Shown here one piece after another: positions 4,944 to 58,163 of a stretch of DNA of 64,000 nucleotides. Within the stretch, counting starts at the first letter, position 1; every line of letters starts with the position of its first letter. The stretch spans positions 1-64,000 of the forward strand of contig NZ_BOMG01000008.1 of the NCBI RefSeq assembly GCF_016862075.1, read 5' to 3'. The stretch comes from Actinoplanes couchii (lineage in GTDB: Bacteria; Actinomycetota; Actinomycetes; Mycobacteriales; Micromonosporaceae). The notes under the pieces are model-generated. The model searched no databases and was not told the DNA's origin. It saw nothing but the letters and a program-made list of their open reading frames with translations. Made by a program: the position numbers and the translations under genes.

Positions 4944-5498
4944 GCTGATGTCGACGCACTGGTCCGGGCCCGCATCCGGGGGCTCCGGCTGGCCAAGGGC
5001 TGGTCACTCGACGAGCTGGGTGCCCGCTGTTATCTGAGCCCGTCCACGCTGAGCCGGATCGAGACCGGTCACCGGCGGATCGGGCTGGACCAGCTGACCA
5101 CGATCGCCCGGGCGCTCGGCGCCAGCCTGGACGAGCTGGTCGACTCCGGGGGTGACGCGGTGGTGATCAAACCGCATCACCATCCGGAGCGCGGCATCAC
5201 GACGTGGGTGCTGACCGGGGAGGAGGGGCGCAGCGGTATGACGGTGGCCCGGATCCGGATCACCCGCCCGGCGTCCCGGCGCCCCGAGGATCTGCGGGTG
5301 CATCCGGGGAAGGACTGGTTCACGGTGCTGTCCGGCACGATCGAGCTGGTGCTCGGCGACCGGGTGGTGGTGGTCGAGGCGGGCGAGGCGGCGTCGTTCT
5401 CGACGATGGTCCCGCACGCGTTCGGCGCCCGCGGCGGCCCCGCCGAGGTGATCGCGGTCCTGACCCCCGACGGCGAACGAACCCACGTCGACGAGTGA
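4932..5498 (+). CDS. XRE-family regulator with C-terminal cupin sensor domain
   Basis: A 188-residue protein. The helix-turn-helix spans about residues 10-64 (LRLAKGWSLDELGARCYLSP, then STLSRIETGHR). A single cupin barrel covers about 95-185 (VHPGKDWFTVLSGTIELVLG and FSTMVPHAFG). Regulators of this layout bind small ligands or metals in the cupin. A short His-rich stretch, KPHHHPERG, joins the two domains. The start at 4932 is the first codon of the HTH reading and sits in the centre of a 9+3+9 palindrome with no Shine-Dalgarno, so the mRNA is probably leaderless. The longer frame back to 4773 would overlap the methyltransferase gene and lacks domain content. The gene end runs into a 31-bp tandem array. 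Confidence 0.9.
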   Translation: MTQDADVDALVRARIRGLRLAKGWSLDELGARCYLSPSTLSRIETGHRRIGLDQLTTIARALGASLDELVDSGGDAVVIKPHHHPERGITTWVLTGEEGRSGMTVARIRITRPASRRPEDLRVHPGKDWFTVLSGTIELVLGDRVVVVEAGEAASFSTMVPHAFGARGGPAEVIAVLTPDGERTHVDE

Positions 5499-5601
5499 CC
5501 CCGGCCGACGGACCGGCGCGGGCGAGTGGCCCCGGCCGGCGGTCCGGCGCGGGCGAGTGGCCCCGGCCGGCGGTCCGGTGCGGGCGAGTGGCCCCGGCCG
5601 G
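5496..5601. repeat. 31-bp tandem repeat beginning at the stop codon of the XRE-cupin gene
   Basis: Copies start at 5496, 5527 and 5558, with a partial copy at 5589. Each begins TGGCCCCGGCCGGCGGTCCG, except that the first begins TGACC and supplies the TGA stop. The second and third copies differ at one base. The rest of the gap to 5727 has one more TGACCCCGGCC fragment (near 5634) and no recognisable gene. Confidence 0.9.
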
Positions 5602-5727
5602 TGAGCGAGCTGACGTGCACGAATGACCCCGGCCTGCGGACACGCGCGCGGGGAAAGATCCCGGGGCGGGGGCCGCTCCCCGCGTACCGCAGCCGGAAGT
5701 TGATCGGGAAGGCCGGAGGCGGTGGGG

Positions 5728-6750: not shown

Positions 6751-6759
6751 CCGCACAGG

Positions 6760-7731
6760 TTAGCGGGACAGCAACGTCAATGTGTCCACGACCCGGTTCG
6801 CGAATCCCCACTCGTTGTCGTACCAGGCCACCGCTTTGACGAGCCGCCCGTTCGCGGCGGTCAGCAGGGAATCGAAAACGGACGAGGCCGGGTCACCGGT
6901 GATGTCCGAGGAGACCAGCGGGTCGGACGAGTGGACCAGGATCCCGCGCAGCGGCCCGGACGCCGCCGCCGCGAACGCGCTGTTGATCTCCTCGACCGTC
7001 ACCTCCCGGCTGACCAGGGCGTTCAGCTCGACCAGGGAGCCGACCGGCACCGGAACCCGCACCGAGTAGCCGGTGAGCCGCCCGGCCAGGCGGGGGAGCA
7101 CCGCCCCGATCGCGGTGGCCGCGCCGGTGGTGGTGGGCGCGATGTTGATCGCGGCGTTCCGGGCCCGGCGCAGGTCACGGTGCGGGGCGTCCTGCAGGTT
7201 CTGCTCCTGCGTGTACGCGTGGATCGTGGTCATCGACCCGGCCTCGATCCCGGCCAGGTCGTCGAGGACCGACGCGACCGGGGCGAGCGCGTTGGTGGTG
7301 CAGGACGCGGTGGAGACGATCCGGTGCCGGGCCGGGTCGTAGTCGCCGTGGTTGATCCCGTACGCGATGGTGATGTCCGCGTCCTTGGCCGGCGCCGTGA
7401 CCAGCACCTTACCGGTCACGTGCGCCCCGGCCCCGCTGGTGAACCGGCCGGTGGACTCGACCGCCACGTCGATGTCCGGCCAGGGCAGCTTCGACGGGTC
7501 CGGCTCGGCGGTCACCGCGATCTTGTGACCGTTCACGATCAGGTGGTCCGGGCCCGCTTCGACGGTGCCGGGGAACCGTCCGAGGGTGCTGTCGTAGCGG
7601 AGCAGGTGGGCGAGCGTCCGGGCGTCGGCCAGGTCGTTGACGGCGGCGATCTCGAAGCCGGCGCCGCTGGACACCGACGCTCGCAGCACGCTGCGCCCGA
7701 TCCGGCCGAACCCGTTGATGGCGATTCTCAT
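6760..7731 (-). CDS. gap: Type I glyceraldehyde-3-phosphate dehydrogenase
   Basis: A 323-residue enzyme that converts glyceraldehyde 3-phosphate to 1,3-bisphosphoglycerate with NAD in glycolysis. The Rossmann start is INGFGRIGR (residues 5-13), NDLAD (32-36) suits NAD, and the catalytic SCTTN has Cys144 with His171 in TTIHAYTQ. The family signature YDNEWGFANRV is near the C-terminus. Length is slightly below the usual 330-340. It starts within the stop codon of the GlxA regulator (ATGA) and is followed 9 bases later by a LacI regulator. Gap genes usually sit with pgk and tpi, so this one is probably a second, conditionally expressed paralogue, though I cannot see the rest of the genome. Confidence 0.9.
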   Translation of the reverse strand: MRIAINGFGRIGRSVLRASVSSGAGFEIAAVNDLADARTLAHLLRYDSTLGRFPGTVEAGPDHLIVNGHKIAVTAEPDPSKLPWPDIDVAVESTGRFTSGAGAHVTGKVLVTAPAKDADITIAYGINHGDYDPARHRIVSTASCTTNALAPVASVLDDLAGIEAGSMTTIHAYTQEQNLQDAPHRDLRRARNAAINIAPTTTGAATAIGAVLPRLAGRLTGYSVRVPVPVGSLVELNALVSREVTVEEINSAFAAAASGPLRGILVHSSDPLVSSDITGDPASSVFDSLLTAANGRLVKAVAWYDNEWGFANRVVDTLTLLSR

Positions 7732-8732
7732 GCCGTCGACTCTCCGTGGATCAGCCGCAGATCAGGAGGGGGCTGAGCGCCGGTTTCCGCAAGCTTTGCG
7801 CCAAACGCCTTCCGGTACGCCGTCGGTGTCGTGCCGAGGATGCGCTGGAAGTGCACCCGCAGGTTGGCGCCGGTGCCGAGCCCGACCCGGGCGGCGATCT
7901 GGTCGACACCGAGCGGGGAGCCCTCCAGGTACCAGCGGGCCATGTCGATCCGGGCGCGCAGGAGCCACTGCATCGGGGTGTAGCCGGTGTCCTCGACGAA
8001 CCGGCGGCCGAACGTGCGGGTCGACACCCGGGCGTGCCGGGCCATCTCGGGGACACCGATCGGCTGGTTCAGCCGGCGCAGCGCCCACTCGCGGGTGGCG
8101 GCGAGCGTGTCGCCGAGGGTCTCGGGCAGGCTGCGCGGGACGACCTGGGGCTGGCCGCCGCTGCGGTACGGTGCGGCGATGATGGTCCGGGCCACCTCGT
8201 TGGAGGCCTGCACGCCGTGGTCCCGCCGGATGATGTGCAGGCAGAGGTCGATGCCGGCGGCGAGCCCCGCGGAGGTGAGGACGTTCCCCTCGTCGACGAA
8301 GAGCACGTCCGAGACGACCGAGATCTCGGGATGGAAGCGTTGCAGGTCGGCGGTCCGCAGCCAGTGCGTCGTGGCCCGCCGCCCGTCGAGCAGCCCGGCC
8401 GCGGCGAGCGCGAACGCCGCCGTGCAGATCGACACCATCCGGGCGCCGCGGGTCGCCGCCAGCCGCAGCGCGTCCAGCACCGGGGGTGCGGGCGGATCGA
8501 GATAGGTGTTGAAAGCGGTCACGATCACGGTGTCCGCCGACGACAGGAGCGACAGCCCGTGCTCGACCGTAAAGCCGAGCCCGTCCCGCCCGGGAACCTG
8601 GCCCGGGGTGACCGAACAGTGCCGCAGTTCGTACCCCAGGCCGTGCCGGGGCGCGAAGATCTGGCTGATGATCCCCACGTCCATGGGATTGGCGCCGGGT
8701 AGGACCAGGACCGCGATTCGATGTGCTCGCAC
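7728..8732 (-). CDS. GlxA-family transcriptional regulator (DJ-1/PfpI plus AraC HTH)
   Basis: A 334-residue protein. The N-terminal DJ-1/PfpI-like domain covers about residues 5-170 (IAVLVLPGANPMDVG; the nucleophile-elbow region reads VSICTAAFALAAAGLLDGRR). The AraC double HTH covers about 225-325 (MARHARVSTRTFGRRF and the second helix pair near GLGTGANLRVHFQRILGTTP). GTG 8732 is the first plausible start, with no strong Shine-Dalgarno. It is the first gene of the operon with gap and lacI, and shares a 78-base divergent promoter region with another LacI gene. The effector is unknown. Confidence 0.9.
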   Translation of the reverse strand: MRAHRIAVLVLPGANPMDVGIISQIFAPRHGLGYELRHCSVTPGQVPGRDGLGFTVEHGLSLLSSADTVIVTAFNTYLDPPAPPVLDALRLAATRGARMVSICTAAFALAAAGLLDGRRATTHWLRTADLQRFHPEISVVSDVLFVDEGNVLTSAGLAAGIDLCLHIIRRDHGVQASNEVARTIIAAPYRSGGQPQVVPRSLPETLGDTLAATREWALRRLNQPIGVPEMARHARVSTRTFGRRFVEDTGYTPMQWLLRARIDMARWYLEGSPLGVDQIAARVGLGTGANLRVHFQRILGTTPTAYRKAFGAKLAETGAQPPPDLRLIHGESTA

Positions 8733-8753
8733 ACAACAATCGTGCCCGGTGCC

Positions 8754-8767
8754 TGGAAACGCTTTAG
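8754..8767. promoter_or_regulatory. Candidate LacI/CRE-type operator between divergent regulators
   Basis: TGGAAACGCTTTAG lies in the 78-base gap between the GlxA operon and the second lacI gene. It has the AAA-CGC-TTT core typical of LacI-family sites, but the flanks are not symmetric. Either LacI protein of this locus is a candidate to bind here. Confidence 0.5.
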
Positions 8768-8810
8768 TGGCGCGTGTACCGTGGGTCGGTCGCGGAAAGG
8801 ACGGTCAGCG

Positions 8811-9821
8811 ATGAGGGAAGACCGGAACCGCTCGACCGGGCGCCCGACTTTGGAAGAGGTCGCGGCCCGGGCCGGAGTGGGCCGCGGGACCGTGTCCCGG
8901 GTGGTCAACGGGTCGGCGCAGGTCAGCCCGCGAGCGCGGCAGGCCGTGCAGGACGCCATCGACGCGCTCGGTTACGTACCGAACCGGGCCGCGCGGGCCC
9001 TCGTCACGCAGCGTACTGATTCGATCGCTCTGGTGGCGTTCGAGTCGGGAGAGCGCTTCTTCGCCGAGCCGTTCTTCGGCCGGATCGTGCAGTCGATATC
9101 GACCGTGCTGGTGGCCCGCAACCTGCAGATGGTCCTGATGATCGCGCAGGCCGCCGAGGAGCGCCGCCAGCTGGAGGGTTACCTGACCCGCCAGCACGTG
9201 GACGGCGCGCTGCTGCTGTCGTTGCACGGCGACGACCCGCTGCCCGCGGTGCTGGAGGAGCGTGGTGTGCCGACGGTGCGCGCCGGCCGTCCCTACCACC
9301 CGGAGCCGGTCAGTTTTGTCGACGCGGACAACCGGGCCGGGGCCCGCGCCGCCGTCACCTACCTCCGTGACCAGGGCCGCCGGTGCATCGCCACGATCAC
9401 CGGGCCGCTCGACATGGCGGTCGGCATCGCCCGTTTCGACGGGTACCGCGACGTGGTCGGCGACGGCCCGGCCGCCCGGGGTGACTTCGGCGAGCTGAGC
9501 GGCGCGACCGCGATGGAGTGGCTGCTGCAGCAGTACCCGCAGATCGACGCGGTGTTCTGCGCCTCGGACATGATGGCCGCCGGCGCGCTGCGCGTGCTGC
9601 GCCGGGCCGGTCGCCGGGTGCCGCAGGACGTCGCCGTGATCGGCTTCGACGACTCGGTCGTCGCCCGGCACACCGACCCGCCGCTGACCAGCGTCTATCA
9701 GCCGGTCGAGCAGATGGGCCAGGAGATGGTCCGGCTGCTGCTCACCAAGATCGACGGCGTGGAGCACACCGATTGGGAGACGGTGCTGCCCACCCGCCTG
9801 ATCTTGCGGGGCTCCGCTTAA
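8811..9821 (+). CDS. LacI-family transcriptional regulator (second)
   Basis: A 336-residue regulator with HTH TLEEVAARAGVGRGTVSRVV and hinge YVPNRAARALVTQRTDS. The sugar-binding-type domain follows, ending with the signature VAVIGFDDSVVARHTDPPLT. Start ATG 8811 has GGAAAGGA about 10 bases upstream. The open frame extends 30 codons further upstream, but that part would cover the operator and shows no domain. It is transcribed away from the GlxA-gap-LacI operon and ends before a strong hairpin. It may regulate itself and the divergent operon. The ligand is unknown. Confidence 0.9.
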   Translation: MREDRNRSTGRPTLEEVAARAGVGRGTVSRVVNGSAQVSPRARQAVQDAIDALGYVPNRAARALVTQRTDSIALVAFESGERFFAEPFFGRIVQSISTVLVARNLQMVLMIAQAAEERRQLEGYLTRQHVDGALLLSLHGDDPLPAVLEERGVPTVRAGRPYHPEPVSFVDADNRAGARAAVTYLRDQGRRCIATITGPLDMAVGIARFDGYRDVVGDGPAARGDFGELSGATAMEWLLQQYPQIDAVFCASDMMAAGALRVLRRAGRRVPQDVAVIGFDDSVVARHTDPPLTSVYQPVEQMGQEMVRLLLTKIDGVEHTDWETVLPTRLILRGSA

Positions 9822-43592: not shown

Positions 43593-45347
43593 ATGAGACC
43601 CATCCCCACCCGCGCCAGGGCGTTCACCGCCGCTGCCGCCGTCGGTGTCGTCGCCGCCTCGGGGGCCGTCGCCGTCGCCACCAGTGCCAGCGCCGCGGCC
43701 GGTTGTCGCGTCGACTACTCGGTCAACCAGTGGAGCAGCGGTTTCACCGGCAACGTGACGGTCACCAACCTCGGTGACGCGATCACCAACGGCTGGACGC
43801 TCACCTGGGCCTGGCCCAGCGGTCAGACGGTCACCCAGGGCTGGAGCGCCACGATCACCCAGTCGGGGGCGAACGTCACCGCGGTCGGCCCGTCCTGGTC
43901 GGCCTCTCTGCCCACCAGCGGCACCGCCACCTTCGGCTTCAACGCCAACTACCCGGGGACGAACACGGCTCCGACGTCGTTCTCGCTGAACGGCACGGTC
44001 TGCAACGGCTCGACCGGCGGCTCGCCGTCGCCGAGCACGAGCACGTCGCCGAGCACCTCACCGTCGCCGGGCACGAGCAACCCGCCGCCCGGCAACAAGG
44101 TCGACAACCCGTACGCCGGAGCCCGGGGTTATGTGAACCCGGAGTGGAAGGCCAAGGCGGAGTCGGTCTCCGGTGGCAGCCGGGTCTCGAACAACCCGAC
44201 CGCGGTCTGGATCGACCGGATCGCCGCGATCGAGGGCACCGACGGCAGCAGCTCGAACGGTTCGATGGGTGTGCGGGACCACCTGGACCGGGCGCTGACG
44301 CAGGGCGCCGGCTACATCCAGTTCGTCATCTACAACCTGCCCGGCCGGGACTGCGCGGCGCTGGCCTCCAACGGTGAGCTCGGCCCGTCCGAACTGCCGC
44401 GGTACAAGACCGCGTACATCGACCCGATCGCCGCGATCCAGGCCGACCCGAAGTACGCGGCGCTGCGGATCATCAACATCGTCGAGATCGACTCGCTGCC
44501 GAACCTGGTCACCAACGTGGGCAGCGCTCCCGGCGCCACGGCGGCCTGCGACACGATGAAGGCGAACGGCGGCTACGTCCAGGGCATCGGTTACGCCCTG
44601 AACAAGCTGGGCGCGCTCGCCAACACCTACAACTACGTGGACGCCGCCCACCACGGCTGGATCGGCTGGGACTCGAACTTCGCCCCGACCGCCGACATCA
44701 TGCTGCAGGCCGCCCAGGCGTCCGGCAACGTGAAGAACGTGCACGGCTTCATCACCAACACGGCCAACTACTCGGCGCTGCGCGAGACCTTCTTCACCGT
44801 CGGTACGAACGTCGGTGGCACCTCGGTGCGGCAGTCCAAGTGGGTCGACTGGAACCAGTACGTGGACGAGCTGAGCTTCGCCCAGGCGTTCCGGACGAAG
44901 CTGGTCTCGATCGGTTTCGACTCGGGCATCGGCATGCTGATCGACACCTCCCGCAACGGCTGGGGCGGTTCGGCCCGGCCGACCGCGGCGAGCACCAGCA
45001 CGAACGTGGACACCTTCGTCAACGAGTCCCGCATCGACCGCCGGATCCACGCCGGCAACTGGTGCAACCAGTCCGGCGCCGGCCTGGGCGAGCGCCCGAC
45101 CGCGGCCCCGGCCGCCGGTATCGACGCCTACGTCTGGGTGAAGCCGCCGGGTGAGTCGGACGGCTCCAGCACCCTCATCCCGAACGACGAGGGCAAGGGC
45201 TTCGACCGGATGTGCGACCCGACTTACACCGGTAACGCCCGTAACGGCAACAGCATGTCGGGCGCGCTGGCCGGCGCCCCGATCTCCGGCGCCTGGTTCG
45301 CCGCCCAGTTCTCGCAGCTGATGGCGAACGCCTACCCGGCCCTGTAA
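43593..45347 (+). CDS. Secreted cellulase: CBM2 plus glycoside hydrolase family 6
   Basis: A 584-residue extracellular enzyme with GAGGAG Shine-Dalgarno at 43581. The signal peptide ends near residue 36 (SASAAA). The CBM2 module (about 37-137: CRVDYSVNQWSSGFTGNVTV, WTLTWAWPSGQTVTQGW) binds crystalline cellulose. A Ser/Pro/Thr linker (about 138-168) joins the GH6 domain (about 169-584) with YNLPGRDCAALASNGE, IVEIDSLPNLVTN, DAAHHGWIGW and LIDTSRNGWGG. The long loops and length suit a cellobiohydrolase more than an endoglucanase. The upstream CebR palindrome predicts induction by cellobiose-type sugars. Confidence 0.95.
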   Translation: MRPIPTRARAFTAAAAVGVVAASGAVAVATSASAAAGCRVDYSVNQWSSGFTGNVTVTNLGDAITNGWTLTWAWPSGQTVTQGWSATITQSGANVTAVGPSWSASLPTSGTATFGFNANYPGTNTAPTSFSLNGTVCNGSTGGSPSPSTSTSPSTSPSPGTSNPPPGNKVDNPYAGARGYVNPEWKAKAESVSGGSRVSNNPTAVWIDRIAAIEGTDGSSSNGSMGVRDHLDRALTQGAGYIQFVIYNLPGRDCAALASNGELGPSELPRYKTAYIDPIAAIQADPKYAALRIINIVEIDSLPNLVTNVGSAPGATAACDTMKANGGYVQGIGYALNKLGALANTYNYVDAAHHGWIGWDSNFAPTADIMLQAAQASGNVKNVHGFITNTANYSALRETFFTVGTNVGGTSVRQSKWVDWNQYVDELSFAQAFRTKLVSIGFDSGIGMLIDTSRNGWGGSARPTAASTSTNVDTFVNESRIDRRIHAGNWCNQSGAGLGERPTAAPAAGIDAYVWVKPPGESDGSSTLIPNDEGKGFDRMCDPTYTGNARNGNSMSGALAGAPISGAWFAAQFSQLMANAYPAL

Positions 45348-45457: not shown

Positions 45458-46066
45458 ATGTGGAGACTGCTGAAGTTCGTGGCCGTCTACGAGCTGCGGC
45501 TCTGGGCGGCGCTGTTCCGCTGGATCGCCCGCCGTCCGGTGCCGGTCGCGGCGGGCACGACTCGTCACCCGTACATCGGCGCGGTGAAGATGATTTTGAT
45601 CTGTCTGATCGTCGTCTCCGCGATCGAGATCCCGATCCTGGAGCTGATGATCCCCTGGCGGCCGGTGGCGAACGCGGCGCTGTTCCTCGGCGTCTACGGC
45701 CTGATCTGGATGATCGGACTGGCCGCCACCATGGTCGTGCACCCGCACCTGGTCGGCCCGGCCGGGCTGCGCGTCCGCAACGGCATCAGCCTGGACCTGC
45801 CGCTGGACTGGGCGTCGATCGACACGATCGAGGTGCGGCGCCGCTCGATGCCGCCGGGCGGTCAGACCCAGCTCGAGGACGGCGTGCTGTCTCTCGGCAT
45901 GGCAAGTCAGACCTCGATCGACGTACGCCTGACCGCCCCGCTGGTCCTGCCGGTCCGCAAGACGAAGGGCGAGCCGGTGAGCACCGTGCGATTCCACGCC
46001 GACGACCCGGAGGCCCTGGTCGCGGCGGCCCGGGAATATCAGGAGTCGGCGGTGAAGAACCGGTAG
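45458..46066 (+). CDS. Membrane protein with PH-like cytoplasmic domain
   Basis: A 202-residue protein with two hydrophobic segments (about residues 44-66 and 72-97). A beta-rich C-terminal domain follows (about 100-200; GPAGLRVRNGISLDLPLDWA, DGVLSLGMASQTSIDVRL, VSTVRFHADDPEALVAAARE). It looks like the bacterial PH-domain group, and probably faces the cytoplasm. ATG 45458 has no Shine-Dalgarno and follows a perfect inverted repeat by 15 bases, so the operator likely blocks its promoter. The 3' end overlaps the convergent DUF3455 gene by 28 bases. Function unknown. Confidence 0.7.
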   Translation: MWRLLKFVAVYELRLWAALFRWIARRPVPVAAGTTRHPYIGAVKMILICLIVVSAIEIPILELMIPWRPVANAALFLGVYGLIWMIGLAATMVVHPHLVGPAGLRVRNGISLDLPLDWASIDTIEVRRRSMPPGGQTQLEDGVLSLGMASQTSIDVRLTAPLVLPVRKTKGEPVSTVRFHADDPEALVAAAREYQESAVKNR

Positions 46067-46644
46067 ACCGCCCGGTACGGCACCGCGACGGTCCCGTCCC
46101 CGGCGCACGGCCCGGACGCCAGCCCGCCGGCCGTGTCCAGCCGCTGGACGTAGGTGACCCGGCCGAACAGTCCGCCGCCGCGCGTGGACTTCGCGGTGAT
46201 CCGCAGCTGCGGGATGCTGTCCCGGTGCCCGGACGGGGCCCGGACCACCGACGCCGGGTCGCCCTCCAGCAGGGATCCGTCCTGGTCCGACTGCCAGCTC
46301 GGCCCCCGGAAGTGCAGGACCGAGACCTTCTTCACCGGGCGCATGGTGACCCCGGTGAGTGAGGCGGCCGGTTCGAGCGGGGCCCACGCGCCGGACCGGC
46401 ATGCGTAGACCTGGACACCCCGGGCCTTGAGGACCGCGTGCACCCGGTGGCCGGGTGGGGGCTCCAGTTCGGGTGGCACCCGGGGATCCGCGCCGTAGTT
46501 GTCGGCCTGGGTGGTCGCCGGCCGTTCCGGCGCCGGGACACGGTCGGTCCCGGCGAACGAGACACCCGCCGGTACGCCGACGGACACCAGCGCGAGCCCG
46601 CCGACCGCTACGGCGACCTTGATGTCTTTCCTGGCAAGGGCCAC
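46039..46644 (-). CDS. Secreted DUF3455-like protein
   Basis: A 201-residue exported protein. GTG 46644 has GGGGAGGA 4 bases upstream. The signal peptide (about 1-31) ends VSFAG. The mature part has the DUF3455 wording: VYACRSGAWAPLEP, LHFRGPSWQSDQDGSLLEG, PQLRITAKSTRGGGLFGRVT and YVQRLDTAGG. The family is extracellular and of unknown activity, known from bacteria and fungi. The two cysteines (CRSG and GPCAG) could form a disulfide. Its stop overlaps the end of the convergent membrane gene. Confidence 0.85.
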   Translation of the reverse strand: MALARKDIKVAVAVGGLALVSVGVPAGVSFAGTDRVPAPERPATTQADNYGADPRVPPELEPPPGHRVHAVLKARGVQVYACRSGAWAPLEPAASLTGVTMRPVKKVSVLHFRGPSWQSDQDGSLLEGDPASVVRAPSGHRDSIPQLRITAKSTRGGGLFGRVTYVQRLDTAGGLASGPCAGDGTVAVPYRAVYRFFTADS

Positions 46645-46732: not shown

Positions 46733-47548
46733 CTAGCGGTAGTTACCCGACGAGGAGTAGAAACCGGTCGGCGCGGCCCGGTCGGCCATCTGCGTCCGGC
46801 GGGCCCGCGAGCGCAACCGGATCAGCAGCATCACGCCGAGGAAGACGCAGATCCCGCCGACGATCAGGCCCGGCCCGAGCAGCGACGACTGGTTGGCGAT
46901 GAGCGCGGCGTCGGCGTTGTTGCCGCCGGTGTCCGCGGTCCGCTCCTGTTCGATCGGCGCGGCGGGCTGGTCGCTCTCCTCCTCCACCGGTGCCTCCTCG
47001 GACTCGGAGGGCTCCGGCGACGGGGAGGGGGAGCGCTCCTCCTCCTCTTCCTCTTCCTCGCCCTCGACCGAGGCGTTCGCGCCGGCCGAGGAGAGGAGGG
47101 TGTTCTGCTCGTCGAAGGCGCGCACCTCGAACTGCACGTCACCGCCGGCCGGGCCCTCGAACCCGACCTGCCAGCGGCCGGTCACCGTCCGCCCCCGGCA
47201 GGAGGTGCCCGGGTCCAGGTCGTTGTCGACGAAGGTCGTCGTGGTGCCCTCGGTCCGGTCGGTGGTCGCGAACGGCCCGTCCTCCTCGACCCGGGTGACC
47301 CGGTACTGCCCGGCGTCGATCCGGGAGCGCATCAGCAGCACGAAACGCACCTTGCGGCAACGCCGGTTGTCCGAGGTGACCACCGCCGTCAGCGTCTCCG
47401 CCGACCGGCCGGCCGTGAAGTCGCCCGGCGCGCTCACCCGCACGCTGAATCCACGTTCGTCAGCCGAGGCCGGCGTCGCGAACGGCACCGCACTCACCAC
47501 GGCGCCGGCGACTACCGCGCCCGTGAGCGCGGCGATCCGGTATCGCAT
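46733..47548 (-). CDS. Type I membrane surface protein with acidic stalk
   Basis: A 271-residue protein. ATG 47548 follows AAGGGGGA. The signal peptide (1-29) ends PASA. The outer domain (about 30-155) is beta-rich with two cysteines (RRCRKVRF and TSCRGRTV). A stalk (about 156-205) holds a run of eight glutamates and Ser/Pro/Glu repeats. The C-terminal helix (about 222-247) is followed by a basic tail with RSRARRTQ, so the topology is outer domain plus single anchor. No sortase LPxTG motif is present. Its leader carries the ATGC-N4-GCAT palindrome at 47566. Confidence 0.75.
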   Translation of the reverse strand: MRYRIAALTGAVVAGAVVSAVPFATPASADERGFSVRVSAPGDFTAGRSAETLTAVVTSDNRRCRKVRFVLLMRSRIDAGQYRVTRVEEDGPFATTDRTEGTTTTFVDNDLDPGTSCRGRTVTGRWQVGFEGPAGGDVQFEVRAFDEQNTLLSSAGANASVEGEEEEEEEERSPSPSPEPSESEEAPVEEESDQPAAPIEQERTADTGGNNADAALIANQSSLLGPGLIVGGICVFLGVMLLIRLRSRARRTQMADRAAPTGFYSSSGNYR

Positions 47549-47565
47549 GACGATCCCCCTTCTAC

Positions 47566-47577
47566 ATGCGTCTGCAT
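47566..47577. promoter_or_regulatory. Second ATGC-N4-GCAT palindrome
   Basis: ATGC-GTCT-GCAT lies 18 bases upstream of the surface protein's start codon. The core and the flanking GCATT match the larger palindrome at 45421-45442, with one spacer base changed (GACT to GTCT). Confidence 0.6.
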
Positions 47578-47940
47578 TACTTAGTTCGCCTACGGAGCGC
47601 GAATGGTTCACTCAGTGGCCTGGGTCACACCCGGAAAGGCGACCTGAGTCACTCCTGGCAATCTCGTTAATTTTTCCTTAACTGAACAACCGTTCGGGCA
47701 TTACCGCAGCTCAGCCGCCCTGCGCGGAGGGTGATCAAGCAATTACGCAAAAAGTTCGGACGGTGTTCATCCGATCCCGGGTCCGGCACGTAATCCGGGG
47801 AGGACACGGACCGCGGCACGCAGGGGAAGTACCGCCGGGGGCCCGGGTCCAGCGCAGAGCTTGAGCGCGGGGCGTTCCCCACGGACGCCGGCGTCCCACC
47901 GCCCACGGGACGTGACCGCACCAAGGAAAACGAGGAGTCC
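47578..47940. other. Divergent intergenic region upstream of the cytochrome gene
   Basis: These 363 bases separate the leftward surface protein and the rightward cytochrome operon. They hold an AT-rich patch with an interrupted palindrome GTTAA-N7-TTAAC (47666-47682) and a 3-copy TCACAC/TCACTC-like element near 47610-47655. GAGGAG, the cytochrome gene's Shine-Dalgarno, is at 47930. No gene is seen. Confidence 0.55.
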
Positions 47941-49677
47941 ATGGCCCGCTCGAAGAACAACAAGGCAGCCCCCACCCGGGCGGCGGTAGACGTCGGATCA
48001 ACCGGTGTCCGTACGGTCCCCAAAGGTGCGGTAGCCGTACTCATCATCTGCATCGTGGCCGCCGTCTGGGCCGTGGCGATGATGACCGGCCCGGGTCGCG
48101 TCGGCTATTACATCCTTTTCGAGTACCTGAAGTACTACATGGGCGTCGTCGCCCTGGTGTCGCTGTCCATCACGATCATGATCGGGCTGGTCGCCACCGA
48201 CCGACTGGTACTCGGCATCCGTCAGCGCGTACTGCTCCAGTCCGCGCACCGCACCACCGGTGTCATCGCGGTCGGCGGTCTGTTCGTCCACGTCTGGACG
48301 AAGGTCACCGACGGCCTGGTCGGTATCATCGACGTCTTCATCCCGTTCCTGGTGAACGGCTGGATCGGCATGGGCACCATCTCCGGATGGGTGATGGTCC
48401 TGGTGATGTGGTCCGGCCTGGCCCGCGCCAAGTTCATCGGCCGCGGCAAGCCGTGGATGTGGCGTGGTCTGCACGCCGTCTCCTACCTGATCTGGCCGAT
48501 CGCCCTGCTGCACGGTCTCGGTGCCGGCCGCCCCGCCGCCACCTGGGTCATCGTCAGCTACATCCTCTGCGTGGTCGGCGTCATCATCGGCCTCGCCGTC
48601 CGGCTCTCGGTCAGCCTCAACCGGCGCAAGGACTTCGCCTCACCGGCAGGTGTCGGCGCGGTCCGGTCGAACGAGACCGGCACCCTGGTCCCCACCGCCA
48701 CGGCGCCGATCCGCCGCCCGGGTGGCGCCGCCGGCCGCCGGGCCGAGCCCGCTCCCGACCTGCTGGCCCCGGCCGGTGGCGGCGGCGGGCAGGTCACCCA
48801 GTCCTGGAGCATGGACGCTCCGCCGGCACCCCCGGTCCCGCCGCCCGCCCCACCCGCCCCGGAACCGCTTCCCGAGCCGGTCGCCGTGGTCGAGGAGGAG
48901 CCCCGTGGCCGTCGCCAGCCCGAGCTGGAGGCGCCCGCCCCGCGTCAGCGCCGGGCCGCCGAGGACGACGAGCGGTACGAGACCCAGACCCGGATGTCGC
49001 GCCGGGACGTCGAGGACGACCGCTACCGGTACGACGACGAGCCCGCCCCGCGGTCCCGTGGCGGTCGTTCCCCGGAGCGGTACGACGAGCCCGCCCCGCG
49101 TGGCCGCCGCTACGAGGACGACGAGCCGCCCACCCGGTCGCGCCGTCGTGACGACCTGGAGTCCACCAGCACCCGGATGCGCCGCGACGACCTCGAGTCG
49201 ACGAGCACCCGGATGCGCCGGGACGACCTCGAGTCCCCGAGCGGCCGGATGCGCCGTTACGAGGAGGAGGAGCCGACCGGCGCCCGGATGCGCCGCGACG
49301 ACCTGGAGTCCCCGAGTGGCCGGATGCGCCGGTACGAGGAGGACGACGCCCCGCGGTCGCGCCGCCGGGAGCCGGAGCCGGAGTACGAGGCCCGTCCGAG
49401 CCGCCGCCGTGCCGAGGACTACGACGACGCCCCCCGGGGCGCCCGGTCCGCGCGGTACGAGGAGCCCCGGTACGAGGAGCCGCCGCCGCGGCGGCCCAGC
49501 CGTAGCGAGTTCGTCGACTTCGCCGACGCCCCGGCCGACGACAGCCCGACCCTGGTCGACACCGGTTCACGGCGGTCCCGCCGCGGCGAGCCGGAGGAGG
49601 GCGGCCGTGGCGGTCGCCGTGGCCGGGACGACGCCGACGACGGGTACTTCTCCCAGCTGCGTGGTGACCGGAATTGA
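47941..49677 (+). CDS. Ferric-reductase-like membrane cytochrome with long charged tail
   Basis: A 578-residue protein. Six hydrophobic segments lie between residues 28 and 224. Four histidines are placed for two b hemes: His103 and His117, and His178 and His191 (H-X13-H and H-X12-H), the pattern of ferric-reductase-type transmembrane cytochromes. The second half (about 230-578) is disordered: a Pro/Ala stretch, then Arg/Asp/Glu-rich sequence with five 12-13-residue RMRRDDLES-type repeats. No FAD or NAD domain is on this chain, but the next, overlapping gene has an FMN/NADH-type module, so the two could form one electron-transfer pair. Function inferred. Confidence 0.75.
   Translation: MARSKNNKAAPTRAAVDVGSTGVRTVPKGAVAVLIICIVAAVWAVAMMTGPGRVGYYILFEYLKYYMGVVALVSLSITIMIGLVATDRLVLGIRQRVLLQSAHRTTGVIAVGGLFVHVWTKVTDGLVGIIDVFIPFLVNGWIGMGTISGWVMVLVMWSGLARAKFIGRGKPWMWRGLHAVSYLIWPIALLHGLGAGRPAATWVIVSYILCVVGVIIGLAVRLSVSLNRRKDFASPAGVGAVRSNETGTLVPTATAPIRRPGGAAGRRAEPAPDLLAPAGGGGGQVTQSWSMDAPPAPPVPPPAPPAPEPLPEPVAVVEEEPRGRRQPELEAPAPRQRRAAEDDERYETQTRMSRRDVEDDRYRYDDEPAPRSRGGRSPERYDEPAPRGRRYEDDEPPTRSRRRDDLESTSTRMRRDDLESTSTRMRRDDLESPSGRMRRYEEEEPTGARMRRDDLESPSGRMRRYEEDDAPRSRRREPEPEYEARPSRRRAEDYDDAPRGARSARYEEPRYEEPPPRRPSRSEFVDFADAPADDSPTLVDTGSRRSRRGEPEEGGRGGRRGRDDADDGYFSQLRGDRN
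49150..49356 (+). repeat. In-frame 36-39-bp tandem array in the cytochrome tail
   Basis: CGGATGCGCC recurs at 49174, 49210, 49246, 49285 and 49321 (36, 36, 39, 36 bases). The units encode RMRRDDLES(T/P)S and RMRRYEEE segments. Confidence 0.9.
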
Positions 49678-51149
49678 GCGCGGAACAGGTTCCCCCGGTC
49701 ACCGCGGTCGGGACACCACGCATCACCGCCGGATTCGACGAGTACGGCCGTCTCGACCTGATCGCGCACCAGGAGGTGCACGGCGGGTTCGCGGCCCTCT
49801 CCTCGGGTGAGCTGATCGGTCTCGCCGACCGGATCGAGCTGCGCGGCCGTGGCGGCGCCGGCTTCCCGTTCGCCCGCAAGGTGCGCGCGGTGGTCGACTC
49901 CTGCCGCCGGCAGGAGCTCCCGCCGGTGATCGTCGTCAACGCCACCGAGGGCGAGCCGCCGTCGTGGAAGGACAAGGCCGTCCTCACCCGCGGCCCGCAC
50001 CTGATCCTGGACGGCGCGGCCCTGGCCGCCGCCGCCCTGGACGCCGAGGAGATCGTCATCGGTGTCGCCGACGACGGTGTCGGCCAGGAGTCCCTGGCGG
50101 CGGCGCTGGCCGAGCGCAAGATGCCCGCGCCGACCCGGATCGTCGTGGTGCCCCACCGGTTCATCTCCGGTGAGGGTGGCGCGCTGGTCCGCGGTATCAA
50201 CGGCGAGGCGCACATCCCGCCCGGCCGCAAGGTCCGGTCCAGCGAGAACGGCGTGATGGGCCTGCCCACCCTGCTGTCGAACGCGGAGACGTACTCGCAG
50301 CTGGCGATCGCGGCCCGGCTCGGGCCGTGGGAGTACAACGCGGTCGGCATGCCCGAGGAGCCCGGCACGGTGATGCTCACCGTCGGTGGCTCCGCGACCG
50401 CGCCGGCCGTGGTCGAGGCGCCCAGCGGCACCCCGCTCATGGAGGTGCTGGAGATGTGCGGCGCCGACGTCGGCCCGGGACTGCTGGTCGGTGGCTACCA
50501 CGGCAAGTGGGTCACCGCCGAGCAGGCGAAGACCATCAAGATCTCCCGTAAGGGGTTCGCGAAGGTCGGCGGCACCCTGGGCGCCGGCATGCTCATCCCG
50601 ATCGGCTCGAAGACGTGCCCGATCGGTGAGGTCGCCCAGGTCGTGCAGTACCTGGCCGGCGAGTCGGCCGGTCAGTGCGGCCCGTGCCGCATCGGCCTGC
50701 CCGACCTGGCCCGCGCGGTGACCCTGGTGGCGCTCGGCGGCAACGCGGTCAAGGAGGTGCGGCAGGCGGCCGGTCTGGTCAAGGGCCGTGGCGCGTGCTC
50801 GCACCCGGACGGCACCGGCCGGTTCGCGCTGTCCGCGCTGGAGGTGTTCAAGGCCGACGTCGAGGCGCACGCCAACGGCGAAGGCTGCGGCAAGTCGGTC
50901 CGCGGCATCCTGCCGCTGCCGTACACGGCCGAGAAGGGCGCCCGCAAGCTGGCCCTGGACTGGTCGCGCTGCGACGGGCACGGGCTCTGCTCGGCGGTGG
51001 CCCCGGAGATCATCCGGCTGGACCACAACGGGTTCCCCGCGTTCCCGCAGACCCCGCTGCCGCCGTGGCTCGAGGACGGCGCGCGCAAGGCGGTCAACGT
51101 CTGCCCGGCCCTGGCCCTGCGCCTGACCGAGCCGACCCCGGCGAAATGA
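49674..51149 (+). CDS. NuoF-like FMN/NADH oxidoreductase with C-terminal ferredoxin
   Basis: A 491-residue protein that starts at TTG 49674, overlapping the cytochrome stop (TTGA). It has the FMN/NADH-binding segment of complex I subunit F (ELRGRGGAGFPFARK, NATEGEPPSWKDK), an SLBB-like part and the 4Fe-4S region. That region reads ESAGQCGPCRIG: the first cysteine of the usual SCGxCxPC is Ala332, while Cys335, Cys338 and a later Cys375 remain. The C-terminal 70 residues form a single-cluster ferredoxin (CDGHGLCSAVAPEIIRLDHN, then VNVCPALAL), 3Fe-4S-like with three cysteines. It may pass electrons from NADH to the cytochrome. Confidence 0.85.
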   Translation: MSAEQVPPVTAVGTPRITAGFDEYGRLDLIAHQEVHGGFAALSSGELIGLADRIELRGRGGAGFPFARKVRAVVDSCRRQELPPVIVVNATEGEPPSWKDKAVLTRGPHLILDGAALAAAALDAEEIVIGVADDGVGQESLAAALAERKMPAPTRIVVVPHRFISGEGGALVRGINGEAHIPPGRKVRSSENGVMGLPTLLSNAETYSQLAIAARLGPWEYNAVGMPEEPGTVMLTVGGSATAPAVVEAPSGTPLMEVLEMCGADVGPGLLVGGYHGKWVTAEQAKTIKISRKGFAKVGGTLGAGMLIPIGSKTCPIGEVAQVVQYLAGESAGQCGPCRIGLPDLARAVTLVALGGNAVKEVRQAAGLVKGRGACSHPDGTGRFALSALEVFKADVEAHANGEGCGKSVRGILPLPYTAEKGARKLALDWSRCDGHGLCSAVAPEIIRLDHNGFPAFPQTPLPPWLEDGARKAVNVCPALALRLTEPTPAK

Positions 51150-51158
51150 CGGAGTGAC

Positions 51159-51758
51159 ATGAGGAAACGCGACTCGGTACGCGTACCAAAGCTGGCCCTG
51201 ATGGCACTGACGACCGCCCTCGCGGCCGCAGCCTGTGGCACCACACCTGTCGCGTCTTCCTCGCCTCCGGAGGTGGCGGCGGCCGGCACGTCCCCGGCCG
51301 TCGCCGCCTCCGGGAGCACCGCCTCCGCGAGCGCAGCCCCGGTGCAGAAGACCGTGCCGAAGAACCTCACCTTCAGCGGGACCACCCTGGAGGGGGCGAA
51401 GTTCGACGCCGCGAGTCTGGCCGGCAAACCGGCGATCCTCTGGTTCTGGGCGCCCTGGTGCGCCACCTGTGCCAGTGAGGCCCAGTCGATCGGCGACCTC
51501 AAGGACGAGTACGGCGACCGTCTGCAGATCCTCGGCATCGCCGGGATGGGCAAGAACGCCGAGATGAAGCGGTTCGTCGCCGACTTCGAGCTGCAGGGCG
51601 TGCCGCACCTGAACGACGCGCCCGGCAAGCTGTGGAAACGGTTCGGGATCGTGCAGCAGAGCTGGTATGTGTTCCTGGACGAGAACGGCAAGGAGACCTA
51701 CAAGGGGTACCTGGACGACCTCCAGCTGACCCAGCGGGTTCAGGCCATCACGGCGTGA
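51159..51758 (+). CDS. Thioredoxin-like (TlpA/DsbE) lipoprotein
   Basis: A 199-residue exported lipoprotein. The signal sequence ends LAAAACG with Cys26 as lipid site. After a Ser/Ala/Pro spacer, the thioredoxin fold (about 70-199) has WFWAPWCATCASE, a CxxC redox motif, and GVPHLNDAPG with the cis-Pro region. ATG 51159 follows a CGGAG Shine-Dalgarno and starts 9 bases after the NuoF-like gene. This suggests it receives electrons on the outer face from the cytochrome. Target proteins are unknown. Its 3' end overlaps the convergent lipoprotein gene by 19 bases. Confidence 0.88.
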   Translation: MRKRDSVRVPKLALMALTTALAAAACGTTPVASSSPPEVAAAGTSPAVAASGSTASASAAPVQKTVPKNLTFSGTTLEGAKFDAASLAGKPAILWFWAPWCATCASEAQSIGDLKDEYGDRLQILGIAGMGKNAEMKRFVADFELQGVPHLNDAPGKLWKRFGIVQQSWYVFLDENGKETYKGYLDDLQLTQRVQAITA

Positions 51759-52434: not shown

Positions 52435-52656
52435 TCAGTAGGCGTTCTTCTCGTTCGGCATCAGGAACCAGAGGATCGGGTAGACCAGGATCTGGCTGCC
52501 CGGGATGAGGAAGAGGATCAGCACGAACAGCAGTCGTGCGATCCACGGGTCGAGGCCGAACCGGCGGCCCAGGCCGGCGCAGACGCCGGCGATCATCCGG
52601 CCCTGCAGAGGGCGGACCAGGCCCTGGCGAGCGAGAGAGTCGTGCACGGCGTTCAT
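52435..52656 (-). CDS. PspC-domain protein
   Basis: A 73-residue protein matching the PspC domain: QGRMIAGVCAGLGRRFGLDP and WIARLLFVLILFLIPGSQIL. One amphipathic and one transmembrane helix are expected. PspC proteins sense envelope stress. ATG 52656 (AGGGA upstream) fits the small actinobacterial form; the longer frame from 52764 adds only non-domain residues. It is divergent from the kinase gene, with 175 bases between. Confidence 0.88.
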   Translation of the reverse strand: MNAVHDSLARQGLVRPLQGRMIAGVCAGLGRRFGLDPWIARLLFVLILFLIPGSQILVYPILWFLMPNEKNAY

Positions 52657-52831
52657 TCGGTGATCCCTGCCTTCACTAGGTGTGAACTGATGACTCCATG
52701 GTGTCCTCCGGACGGGTGCTTGCGCATCGGGTCTCCCCCCGATCTCCGACTCGGGGATCTCCATGAGACCGCCTGCCCGGGTAGAGACAGCGCCCTATAA
52801 AGTGCGAGCGGCACGCTTCGGGGGGACGGGA

Positions 52832-54622
52832 ATGGGCGACGGCACACTGCCGGGTGAGCGGACGCAACCGCTGCGCCCACGGGATCCTCGTGCCCTCGGC
52901 GACTACGAGCTGGTCGGCCGCCTGGGCGAGGGCGGGATGGGCACGGTCTTCCTCGGGCGCACCGCCGGTGGGGTGCTGGTCGCGGTCAAGGTGGTGCGCG
53001 CCGATCTGGCCCACGACGACGAGTTCCGCCGCCGGTTCCGCAGCGAGGTCAACCGGGCCCGGCAGGTCCCGCCGTTCTGCACCGCCGAGGTGCTGGACGC
53101 CGACCCCGACCACGAGCAGCCCTACCTCGTGGTGGAGTTCGTGGACGGCCCCACCCTGGCCGAGGTGGTCGAGCAGCGCGGCCCGCTGACCAGCGCCAAC
53201 CTGCACGGCGTGGCGATCGGGGTGGCCACCGCGCTGACCGCGATCCACGGCGCCGGGGTGATCCACCGCGACCTGAAACCGCGCAACGTGCTGCTGGCGC
53301 CGGGCAGCCCCAAGGTGATCGACTTCGGGATCGCCCGGGCCATGGAGGCGACCAGCGCCAACACCCGCACCGACCAGATGGTCGGCACGGTGGCGTACAT
53401 GGCGCCCGAGCGGTTCGGGTCCGAGGAGGACACCCCGATCACCCCGGCCGCCGACGTGTTCGCCTGGGGCACCGTGGTGGCGTACGCGGGGACCGGCCAG
53501 ACCCCGTTCCACGCCGACTCGCCGCCCGCCCTGGCGGCCCGCATCCTGACCCAGCCGCCCCGGCTGGACGGCCTCAGTGGACCGCTGCGCGACCTGGTCG
53601 GGCACGCCCTGGAGAAGGAGCCGGAGAACCGGCCCAGTTCCCGGGAGCTGCTCGATCTGCTGGTGTCCGGGTCCGGCCGGCCGTCCGCGACCGCCGCCGC
53701 CTTCGCCGACCAGCCCGACCTGCGCGCGGCCGCGGTCGAGGCGCAGGCCGTCACCGGGGTCACCGGCCCGCCGACCGCCGGCACCACCGCCGTGCCGACC
53801 CTGAGCATCCCGCCCGGCCTGGTCGGCTACGACGAGAACTCGATCGTCACGGTGCCGATCTCGGCGCCGCCCGGTGGCCCGCTGCCGCTGCCCGGCCCGC
53901 CGCCCCCGGAACCGGCCCGGCGCTGGGCGCTGCCCGCCGCGGTCGGTTTCCTGATCCTGGCGATCATCGCCGGCGCGGTGATGCTGGCGCTGTCGGTCCG
54001 CGACCGGGACGGACAGTCCGAGCAGGCCGCCGACCCGACCCTGATCGTCGCGCCGTCGGTGCCCGCGGTCGCGCCGTGGATCAAGGACGCGCTGCGGCAG
54101 CAGGAGTACTGGAAACCCAGCGACCAGGCCGGCGAGGGGGAGTGCCACTTCGACGCCGCCCAGGGGCTGGTCGCCCGGCGGGCCACCGAGGGCACCTTCA
54201 AGTGCAAGGGCCCGTCCGACCAGCTCCCCGCCGATCTGCGGATCGACGTGACGGTGCGGCTGAACACGCCGGACAGCTGCGCGACCGTCTGGTTCCGCAA
54301 CGAGGGCAACACCGGCTATCAGCTCCGGGTCTGCGAGCGGAACCTGTACCTGGGGGTGCACCGGTCCCGGGATGTCACGGTCAAGCGGACGTTCCCCCTG
54401 ACCAGCGGCCCGATCGAGATCGCCGTGGCCACCCGGATCGCGCTCGTGGCCAAGGGTGACGTGGTGCAGATCCTCCGGGACGGCGTCCCGGTCGGCGAGG
54501 CGCCGCTCGACGAGGCCGGCATCACGGTCGGCCGGGTGGTGCTCGGCATCTACAACGAGCGCGATCCGGCGCCCGGGCCGTACGAGGTCGCCTTCAGCGA
54601 CCTCGACATCTGGAAGTTGTGA
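52832..54622 (+). CDS. Receptor-like Ser/Thr protein kinase (second)
   Basis: A 596-residue kinase. The catalytic domain (about 25-275) has LGEGGMGTVF, VAVKVV, IHRDLKPRNV with the catalytic Asp, DFGIAR and MAPERFG. After a Pro/Gly-rich region (275-370) a transmembrane helix (about 370-393) leads to an outer domain (about 400-596) with Cys pairs (GECHFD/TFKCKG and DSCATV/LRVCER). The outer domain is beta-sandwich-like (YQLRVCERNLYLGVHRSRDV). ATG 52832 follows a GGGGGGACGGG Shine-Dalgarno-like stretch. A bidirectional hairpin follows the gene. Confidence 0.92.
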   Translation: MGDGTLPGERTQPLRPRDPRALGDYELVGRLGEGGMGTVFLGRTAGGVLVAVKVVRADLAHDDEFRRRFRSEVNRARQVPPFCTAEVLDADPDHEQPYLVVEFVDGPTLAEVVEQRGPLTSANLHGVAIGVATALTAIHGAGVIHRDLKPRNVLLAPGSPKVIDFGIARAMEATSANTRTDQMVGTVAYMAPERFGSEEDTPITPAADVFAWGTVVAYAGTGQTPFHADSPPALAARILTQPPRLDGLSGPLRDLVGHALEKEPENRPSSRELLDLLVSGSGRPSATAAAFADQPDLRAAAVEAQAVTGVTGPPTAGTTAVPTLSIPPGLVGYDENSIVTVPISAPPGGPLPLPGPPPPEPARRWALPAAVGFLILAIIAGAVMLALSVRDRDGQSEQAADPTLIVAPSVPAVAPWIKDALRQQEYWKPSDQAGEGECHFDAAQGLVARRATEGTFKCKGPSDQLPADLRIDVTVRLNTPDSCATVWFRNEGNTGYQLRVCERNLYLGVHRSRDVTVKRTFPLTSGPIEIAVATRIALVAKGDVVQILRDGVPVGEAPLDEAGITVGRVVLGIYNERDPAPGPYEVAFSDLDIWKL

Positions 54623-57079: not shown

Positions 57080-57443
57080 CGACGCCGCCCCGGCTTGTCG
57101 CGCCGCCCCGGACTGTCACCCGCCCGCGATCATGAACCGCACGTCGCGGCGTCCCTCTCGCGGGGGATGCCCGGATCGCTCATGAACCGCCCAGGGCGGC
57201 CCGTCCGTACCCCGATGTCGCGAATGTCACTGTGGCTTCCCGGTCCGGATCAACGACCTTTTTTGCTGCCGTACGGCGGGGAAAGGCTCGAAGATCGGCC
57301 CTTCGGAGGGGCCGGCTGAGCTGTGACCTGCGCGATCATCCGGCTACCGGGGGTGTGTGGCCGTCCGGGGTATCAAACGGAAGCCGCGACACTTGGTAGG
57401 AGGTACTAGAGACAACGGAATTGGCCTTTGGCACTCTTGCAGC
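57080..57443. other. Intergenic region between tex and the PP2C gene
   Basis: These 364 bases separate divergent genes. TCATGAACCGC occurs twice, near 57131 and 57179. A small hairpin, GGCCC-TTCGGA-GGGCC, lies near 57298-57314. TAGGAGGTACTAG (57396-57408) may contain a -10-like TACTAG for the phosphatase. No gene is seen. Confidence 0.5.
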
Positions 57444-58163
57444 ATGACGCTTGCTGTCCGGGCGGTCGCCGCCACTGATCAGGGCCTGGTCCGGTCCAAC
57501 AACGAAGACGCGGTCTTCGTCGGTAATCGACTCTTCGTGGTGGCGGACGGCATGGGCGGGCTCCCCGCCGGTGAGCTGGCGAGCGACATGGTCGTGCAGA
57601 CCCTCAGCTCCGTCGACACCGCGCCCGACAACGGCGAGCCCCTGCAGGACCTGATCTCCGCCCTGGAGACGGCGAACCAGCGGATCGAGGCGTCGGTGGC
57701 CGAGGACGACGCCCGCGACGGCATGGGCACCACGGTGACGGCCCTGCTGCTGTCCGGTGATCGCCTGGCCGTGCTGAACGTCGGCGACTCCCGCTGCTAT
57801 CTGCTCCGCGACGGCGAGTTCCAGCAGCTCACCCGGGACGACACGTATGTGCAGGCGCTCGTCGACCAGGGCGTCCTGACCCGCGACGACGCCCGCCGCC
57901 ACCCGCAGCGCGCCCTGGTGACCCAGGCCGTCCAGGGCGGGCCGTACCGCCCGGCCGGCCGCACCATCCCGGCTCGCGTCGGCGACCGTTTCCTGCAGTG
58001 CAGCGACGGCCTCTCCGACTACGTCGAGGACACCGTGATCGCCCAGACCCTGCGCGAGGTCGCCGACCGCAAGGAGTGCGCCGCGGCCCTGGTCAACCGA
58101 ACCCTCGAAAACGGAGCCCCCGACAACGTGACGGTCATCGTCTCCGACATCGTCGACGCCTGA
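57444..58163 (+). CDS. PP2C-type Ser/Thr protein phosphatase
   Basis: A 239-residue soluble phosphatase with metal-binding and family motifs in order: SNNEDAVF, VADGMGG, GMGTTVTALL, NVGDSRCYLLRDG, QCSDGLSDYV and DNVTVIV. It reverses Ser/Thr phosphorylation and is a plausible partner of the two receptor-like kinases of this window. It lacks the transmembrane and outer domain of the cell-division-cluster PstP. ATG 57444 has no clear Shine-Dalgarno; the frame extending upstream to 57357 has no domain content. Confidence 0.93.
   Translation: MTLAVRAVAATDQGLVRSNNEDAVFVGNRLFVVADGMGGLPAGELASDMVVQTLSSVDTAPDNGEPLQDLISALETANQRIEASVAEDDARDGMGTTVTALLLSGDRLAVLNVGDSRCYLLRDGEFQQLTRDDTYVQALVDQGVLTRDDARRHPQRALVTQAVQGGPYRPAGRTIPARVGDRFLQCSDGLSDYVEDTVIAQTLREVADRKECAAALVNRTLENGAPDNVTVIVSDIVDA

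Follow-up and report, generated by a model that had tools for sequence, protein, structure and literature searches.

The CYT-NUOF-TRX locus and its described counterparts

MsrQ-like systems have been reported to be broad in Actinobacteria, and 31 clusters with a NuoF-like protein were found via ApbE/FMN-binding genes (PMC8238504; here and throughout, papers are cited for the portions of them that were consulted). MsrQ and other four-His cytochromes were modelled in PMC11334425, the consulted portion of which does not mention NuoF. Here we compare with these systems a locus of Actinoplanes couchii, found in a stretch of 64,000 nt (the window) in contig C8 of the 11.46-Mb genome. Its three genes encode a membrane cytochrome (CYT), a NuoF-like protein (NUOF) and a thioredoxin-fold protein (TRX). 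A preliminary description had joined them into a chain from NADH through iron-sulfur clusters and heme to a disulfide, and proposed that it supplies reducing power outside the membrane without DsbD or CcdA. Our analyses favor another reading: CYT and NUOF would together make up a module of the MsrQ-like (Ferric_reduct) kind that exports electrons across the membrane, and TRX would be an accessory to it. We put the probability of this reading at roughly 0.6.

The features of the locus are as follows.

47941..49677, plus strand: CYT, membrane cytochrome of 578 aa, with the six-helix domain and its two likely heme sites in residues 1-240
48247-48249, 48289-48291, 48472-48474 and 48511-48513, plus strand: codons of CYT His103, His117, His178 and His191
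48661..49677, plus strand: charged repetitive C-terminal tail of CYT, within the CYT gene
49150-49331, plus strand: 36-bp DNA repeats in the CYT tail
~49627-49674, plus strand: CYT end peptide with ...GYFSQLRG...
49674..51149, plus strand: NUOF, NuoF-like, 491 aa, TTG start
50955..51122, plus strand: NUOF ferredoxin domain (residues 428-483, Pfam Fer4_15); Cys433, 439 and 477 invariant
51159..51758, plus strand: TRX, predicted lipoprotein with a thioredoxin fold, 199 aa, WCATC (Cys101, Cys104), DsbE/DsbF-type

The CYT stop and NUOF start overlap by 4 nt, and 9 nt separate the NUOF stop from TRX. All three reading frames were open at these positions, in agreement with the initial account of closely packed or overlapping genes. 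The promoter scan found no promoter-like sites; the terminator scan gave two terminator-like sites (1.0 expected), each of them on the minus strand.

Conservation and composition of the CYT-NUOF pair

We assessed conservation of the pair by tblastn and profile searches, because gene calling had missed genes (TRX in several loci, for example). NUOF adjoined CYT in all 42 core loci, which were picked by their CYT match. A second set of 80 named loci was found with NUOF, these being the best 80 of 569 confirmed stretches and partly from the same genomes as other loci; it was grouped by hand into 48 from Micromonosporaceae and 32 others, and 16 of the 80 were under 15 kb. CYT lay directly upstream of NUOF in 79 of them, the exception being L213, whose contig starts just before NUOF. 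Odd overlaps among a few matches (L165, L212, L223, L226) were kept as scored. Within the genus, each of the 60 genomes searched carried one CYT homologue at E <= 1e-40, an observation beyond chance. Matches at E <= 0.001, distant paralogues included, were present in 65/121 family genomes and 95/296 class genomes. In the phylum sample the NUOF profile matched at least 16/296 genomes at E <= 1e-80 and at least 8/296 at E <= 1e-180, both lower bounds since five candidates were scored per genome. The closest named relatives of NUOF, among the best 80 of 569, were those of Actinoplanes species (90-94% identity), and the pair was also present in records of Micromonospora, Actinomadura and Streptosporangiaceae. 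Conserved synteny, set by the preliminary description as a check on the three genes, holds for CYT and NUOF; TRX is optional, lying just downstream of NUOF in 31 of the 80 named loci. These data support the conclusion that CYT and NUOF belong together as a conserved unit, one that has the components of a trans-membrane electron carrier.

The AlphaFold2 model of CYT residues 1-240 contains six long helices (mean pLDDT 88.9, pTM 0.78). Across 45 CYT members, 22 alignment columns are invariant, among them those of His103, His117, His178 and His191; these four residues were present in 42/42 core proteins and in all 12 aligned paralogous CYT proteins, a set that excludes the paralogue of the window genome itself (L132). 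Model and alignment together bear out the six transmembrane segments and two His pairs proposed at the outset. Since His103 and His117 share one helix of the model and His178 and His191 another, two hemes could stack across the membrane. The family to which CYT belongs was reached by a chain of comparisons. The Ferric_reduct family, PF01794, matched 11/11 CYT paralogues and, weakly, 15 of the 45 core members (E <= 0.01; the best reached 5e-5), and profile-profile comparison of core CYT with the paralogue group gave a probability of 99.9 (E 3.7e-35). By this chain of sequence matches, CYT is predicted to be a distant relative of the Ferric_reduct/MsrQ-like family.

According to PMC8238504, MsrQ itself is a subunit that binds quinone. 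By analogy, CYT-NUOF might exchange electrons with menaquinone and act as a reductase fed by quinol or as a small NAD(P)H:quinone oxidoreductase. Export would, however, better suit a protein with outward partners and two complete His pairs, and we regard the quinone reading as improbable.

The charged, repetitive tail of CYT comprises ~333 residues in the window protein and 9 to 505 residues in other core members. Within the last 30 residues, 78 of 121 core CYT proteins carry the motif [YF][WFLY]xx[LMI][RK], for which the rate in the remainder of the same proteins predicts ~0.0004 per protein; the motif was picked after the ends had been inspected, so this enrichment figure is descriptive. The 43 proteins without it are mostly from outside Micromonosporaceae. 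An end peptide of the D..YWxxLRGE type is common to the tails of the window protein and of L092-L227, which are otherwise variable, and some Planotetraspora loci have the related form PDEQFWAELK. One reading is that the end peptide may serve as a docking peptide for NUOF.

NUOF shares its fold and FMN site with complex I NuoF, and departs from it in an absent first N3 Cys, an altered pocket, an extra Cys and a ferredoxin tail. Pfam assigned Complex1_51K (E 1e-26), NADH_4Fe-4S (PF10589, E 1.7e-14) and Fer4_15 (E 3.3e-12), and the NUOF model aligned with complex I NuoF at Z ~44 over 387-399 residues (for 6hl4_D, Z 44.5 over 387 residues, rmsd 2.1). To interpret individual residues, 45 NUOF members were compared with the complex I NuoF of the window genome (at C84), using the FMN-site, N3 and NADH-pocket roles assigned to these residues in work on complex I. 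The FMN-site residues are kept (G58/60/61, K69, N89, E92, E94, K99, D100, N203). The first N3-type Cys (C360 of the genome's own NuoF) is replaced by Ala332 in 40 of 45 members and by Ser or Thr in the rest, never remaining Cys; Cys315, 335, 338, 375 and 405 are invariant, Cys405 being the one that is extra. At NADH-pocket positions, F86 corresponds to Ala72 and Y188 to Phe163 (44/45 each), E193 to Gly/Ser168 (45/45) and F213 to Arg188 (39/45). The ferredoxin domain has the three invariant Cys listed above, an arrangement reminiscent of the [3Fe-4S] ferredoxins of P450 systems. Of the NADH/FMN input assigned to NUOF earlier, the FMN part is consistent with the retained residues, but the nucleotide pocket differs from that of complex I, so that NADH is at most a putative donor. 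A preference for NADPH is a possible reading of the pocket; it draws on work on NuoF Glu183, for which the literature search brought no paper. A plain complex I paralogue was also considered and is ruled out, because the genome carries a separate true NuoF.

In the module that we favor, a cytosolic reductant, either NADPH or NADH, would reduce FMN on NUOF, from which electrons would pass to the NUOF iron-sulfur cluster and then to the fused ferredoxin domain. The ferredoxin domain would deliver them to a predicted inner heme (His103/His178), and thence to an outer heme (His117/His191) and an acceptor outside the membrane. The predicted topology places both the N and C ends of CYT inside. Contact with TRX, if any, is likewise an inference.

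TRX, CcdA-like proteins and other outer neighbours

TRX matches Pfam AhpC-TSA and Redoxin. Its CxxC (Cys101-A-T-Cys104) is CATC in 11 of 12 sequences and CAMC in L145, and the signal-peptide Cys26 is conserved in 12/12; the residue at lipobox position -3 is Ala, so that of the 'CxxC lipoprotein' proposed earlier the CxxC is present and the lipoprotein status is likely, not certain. The best PDB match was M. tuberculosis DsbF (3ios, E 2.8e-30), followed by MPT53/DsbE (1lu4, E 9.1e-24). Both relatives are reported to be oxidants, with no insulin reduction in the test used, and their membrane partner is thought to be DsbD (Rv2874) or Rv2877c (PMC3853704); DsbE is listed in one operon with Rv2877c (PMC3792642). 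The reported oxidant role speaks against the claim that TRX conveys reducing power outward.

We then counted TRX and CcdA-like genes in the 60 genus genomes. Only strong matches entered these counts (CcdA to E 3.1e-43, TRX to E 7.8e-30); weaker ones, at ~30% identity, were taken as other thioredoxins or CcdA proteins and left out, and at most 53 CcdA candidates were scored per genome, so absences are not strict. TRX was linked to CYT in 51 genomes. A CcdA-like gene was also linked in 30 of these, directly after TRX; five had CcdA elsewhere beside a TRX paralogue, four, including the window genome, had it elsewhere alone, and 12 had no TRX-type CcdA. Among the other genomes, three carried TRX away from CYT or on a different contig; six had neither a strong TRX match nor a TRX-type CcdA. 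CcdA tracks TRX closely: 39 of 44 strong CcdA matches (E <= 3.1e-43) adjoin a TRX, and none of the 60 genomes has a TRX-type CcdA without TRX, whereas TRX without such a CcdA does occur. All 19 genomes that lack a strong TRX-type CcdA (13 with TRX, 6 without) contain a DsbD_TM match. The window genome encodes two DsbD_TM proteins, at C114 and C85. The C114 CcdA matches PF02683 and is 43% identical to the CcdA after TRX in L099, a protein that itself has no Pfam match; the C85 protein adjoins a gene judged by eye to be TlpA-like.

Among the named loci, a CcdA-like gene was present in 23 of the 80 and occurred together with TRX in 21, and every locus with either gene belongs to the 48 from Micromonosporaceae. 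L161 and L163, two of the 23, have CcdA and no detected TRX. TRX was next to the pair in none of the 32 loci outside Micromonosporaceae.

These counts, of CcdA beside TRX and elsewhere, do not support a chain without CcdA as the general case, or the claim that the system operates without DsbD or CcdA. Nor is TRX a constant end of the chain, being absent beside the pair in all non-Micromonosporaceae loci and without a strong match in six genus genomes. The narrower proposal, that the outer CYT heme reduces the TRX disulfide and replaces DsbD/CcdA as the outside source of reductant, is consistent with the linkage of TRX to CYT in 51 of 60 genomes, and in the 12 with linked TRX and no TRX-type CcdA a path from CYT to TRX is conceivable. 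However, DsbD_TM matches are found in all 19 genus genomes without a strong TRX-type CcdA, half of the genus genomes have CcdA right after TRX, the DsbF/DsbE relatives are reported oxidants, and many loci keep CYT-NUOF without TRX; we therefore consider this proposal unlikely. We know of little precedent for direct transfer from heme b to a disulfide. A composite scenario appears improbable. In lineages that keep TRX without a TRX-type CcdA (12/60), an MsrQ-like cytochrome might reduce the DsbF-type disulfide from heme in place of CcdA, while elsewhere the module would drive DUF4142, DUF1996 or Lipoprotein_15 proteins, with an altered NuoF that might use NADPH as its electron source.

Most likely, TRX in the window has an accessory role, as a thiol protein that depends on a partner of the CcdA type, and is not the obligatory end of a heme chain. 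An accessory of this kind could also act outside the electron chain: TRX-CcdA might act on CYT-NUOF during its assembly, holding thiols of the cytochrome or of a partner in the proper state. This would be compatible with the export module, and it fits the observation that TRX and CcdA form a pair of their own that is optional to CYT-NUOF. Yet no conserved extracytoplasmic Cys was identified in CYT (Cys210, conserved at 93%, is in the last helix), and the two loci with CcdA and no detected TRX do not fit. We hold an assembly role to be doubtful.

Beyond Micromonosporaceae, the pair has other neighbours. DUF4142 and DUF1996 proteins were each found in 22 of the 80 named loci, and the 32 non-Micromonosporaceae loci accounted for 21 and 20 of them, respectively, with Lipoprotein_15 in two. 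These names were assigned by Pfam on examples and extended by profiles built from the loci. TRX never occurred together with DUF4142 or DUF1996 in a named locus (0/80). The window genome has two DUF1996 matches, both away from the pair (C64 and C63). In the export module, the acceptor part would be exchangeable by lineage. In Micromonosporaceae it would be a TRX of the DsbE/DsbF type, often accompanied by a CcdA-like protein; in Streptosporangiaceae and Actinomadura, DUF4142 and DUF1996 proteins would take its place, with Lipoprotein_15 in some cases. A DUF305-type protein, assigned by Pfam in L116 and by profile in the others, lies directly after NUOF in L116, L117 and L195, the last two apparently the same contig, and is a further candidate partner.

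Several results weigh against the export module as we propose it. Neither Pfam nor NCBIfam gave the window CYT a match up to E 1, and the CYT profile matched no PDB sequence up to E 10. Foldseek with the CYT model ranked STEAP4, NOX5 and SpNOX first at weak E values (0.033-0.1), with none at E <= 0.001. By VIA, CYT and SpNOX aligned at Z 13.6 (rmsd 3.1, 148 aligned), which is near the stated helical-bundle background, cytochromes b6f and b561 being within 1. The 12 genus genomes with linked TRX and no TRX-type CcdA fall on the same side of the balance. So do the 23 of 80 named loci that have none of TRX, CcdA, DUF4142, DUF1996 and Lipoprotein_15; an acceptor encoded next door is thus no rule.

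Those 23 loci and the first-ranked solved folds would both fit a model in which a small acceptor, such as a ferric or cupric ion or oxygen, took electrons from the outer heme without a dedicated protein, as in STEAP proteins, ferric reductases and NOX. Some MsrQ-like clusters are tied to iron uptake (PMC8238504). However, secreted or membrane thiol-redox neighbours recur in 57 of the 80 loci, and a Pfam scan of nine more window genes showed no metal transporter. A small acceptor is a possible, if tentative, alternative to the exchangeable partners of the export module.

Other window genes surround the locus. Upstream of CYT, the minus-strand gene at 46736-47611 encodes a secreted-looking protein with a hydrophobic C-terminal stretch and no Pfam match; the cluster holding it is common to nine of the loci compared. 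Pfam identified a GH6 cellulase with CBM2 (43608-45344, plus strand), a DUF3455 protein (46039-46644, minus strand), a PspC protein (52438-52764, minus strand), a Ser/Thr protein kinase (52763-54619, plus strand) and a PP2C phosphatase (57357-58160, plus strand).

Paralogous loci and comparison with known systems

ApbE separates the CYT-NUOF subfamily from a paralogous group of 13 loci (L132-L144). These paralogous loci encode a CYT-like protein with the same His set (12/12 aligned), and an adjoining NUOF-like gene in 10/13 that has the same Ala-for-Cys change and extra Cys405 (10/10). They differ from the core loci in mostly lacking the long CYT tail, in a ferredoxin that is mostly a separate reading frame, and in ApbE, which is present in 11/13. 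The ApbE profile matched none of 121 core loci (three under 10 kb) and nothing in the window. No FMN-binding domain was matched by Pfam among 12 window proteins scanned, and a strict search for the FMN-attachment motif found no match, the ApbE-linked loci included, and so gave no candidate ApbE substrate in the paralogues. The contrast in ApbE identifies the window system as an ApbE-free variant.

One paralogous ApbE-linked locus is in the window genome itself (G000:C82, which is L132). Its CYT frame (~7698-8387, minus strand) seems broken before the fourth His, which is missing in the frame read; the gene may be decaying, or the assembly may be in error here. The ApbE, CYT-like, NUOF-like and ferredoxin genes of this locus converge on a gene of the opposite strand (4333-6267, plus strand, against 6248-9435, minus strand), which by eye looks like a sulfite-oxidase-type molybdenum protein in an MsrPQ-like setting.

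In a literature search that mostly covered journals outside subscription, the CYT-NUOF-TRX set was not named in titles or the starts of abstracts, and clusters with MsrQ-like and NuoF-like proteins were seen described in PMC8238504 only. The statement that the set has no described function holds for its acceptor and physiology; a system of this kind has been described in silico in the consulted portion of that paper. Our analyses define, among MsrQ-like/NuoF electron-export systems, an ApbE-free branch that is present once in each of the 60 genus genomes searched. This variant of a described type is common to many soil actinobacteria. If the neighbours are acceptors, DUF4142, DUF1996 and Lipoprotein_15 proteins, whose function is unknown, become testable redox partners. 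The comparison also illustrates how a plausible story from a single window, a cytochrome-fed thioredoxin, shifts once neighbours are counted: the TRX gene beside the pair is no proof of a new reducing pathway, and is probably an accessory with a known type of partner.

TRX resembles mycobacterial DsbE/DsbF with Rv2877c or DsbD, both in sequence and in its pairing with a CcdA-like membrane protein; here, TRX-CcdA stands behind CYT-NUOF, and in the window genome CcdA is elsewhere. CYT resembles MsrQ, STEAP, NOX and ferric reductases (PF01794) in its six helices and four central His for two predicted hemes. It differs in that a NuoF-type protein, separate from the cytochrome, is the proposed donor in the window, and that the window CYT itself falls under the Pfam threshold. 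DUF4405 cytochromes are a look-alike (PMC11334425, in the portion consulted); the Pfam scan, the sole check for DUF4405 here, gave the window CYT no match. The closest comparison is with the clusters of PMC8238504, as far as the consulted portion describes them. The window subfamily is without ApbE, their defining feature, has ferredoxin fused to NUOF and different outer neighbours, and in many members carries a long CYT tail. In outline it is like them: found broadly in Actinobacteria, a predicted bis-heme protein with six helices stands next to a donor protein of the NuoF-like type, with a proposed NAD(P)H-fed transfer.

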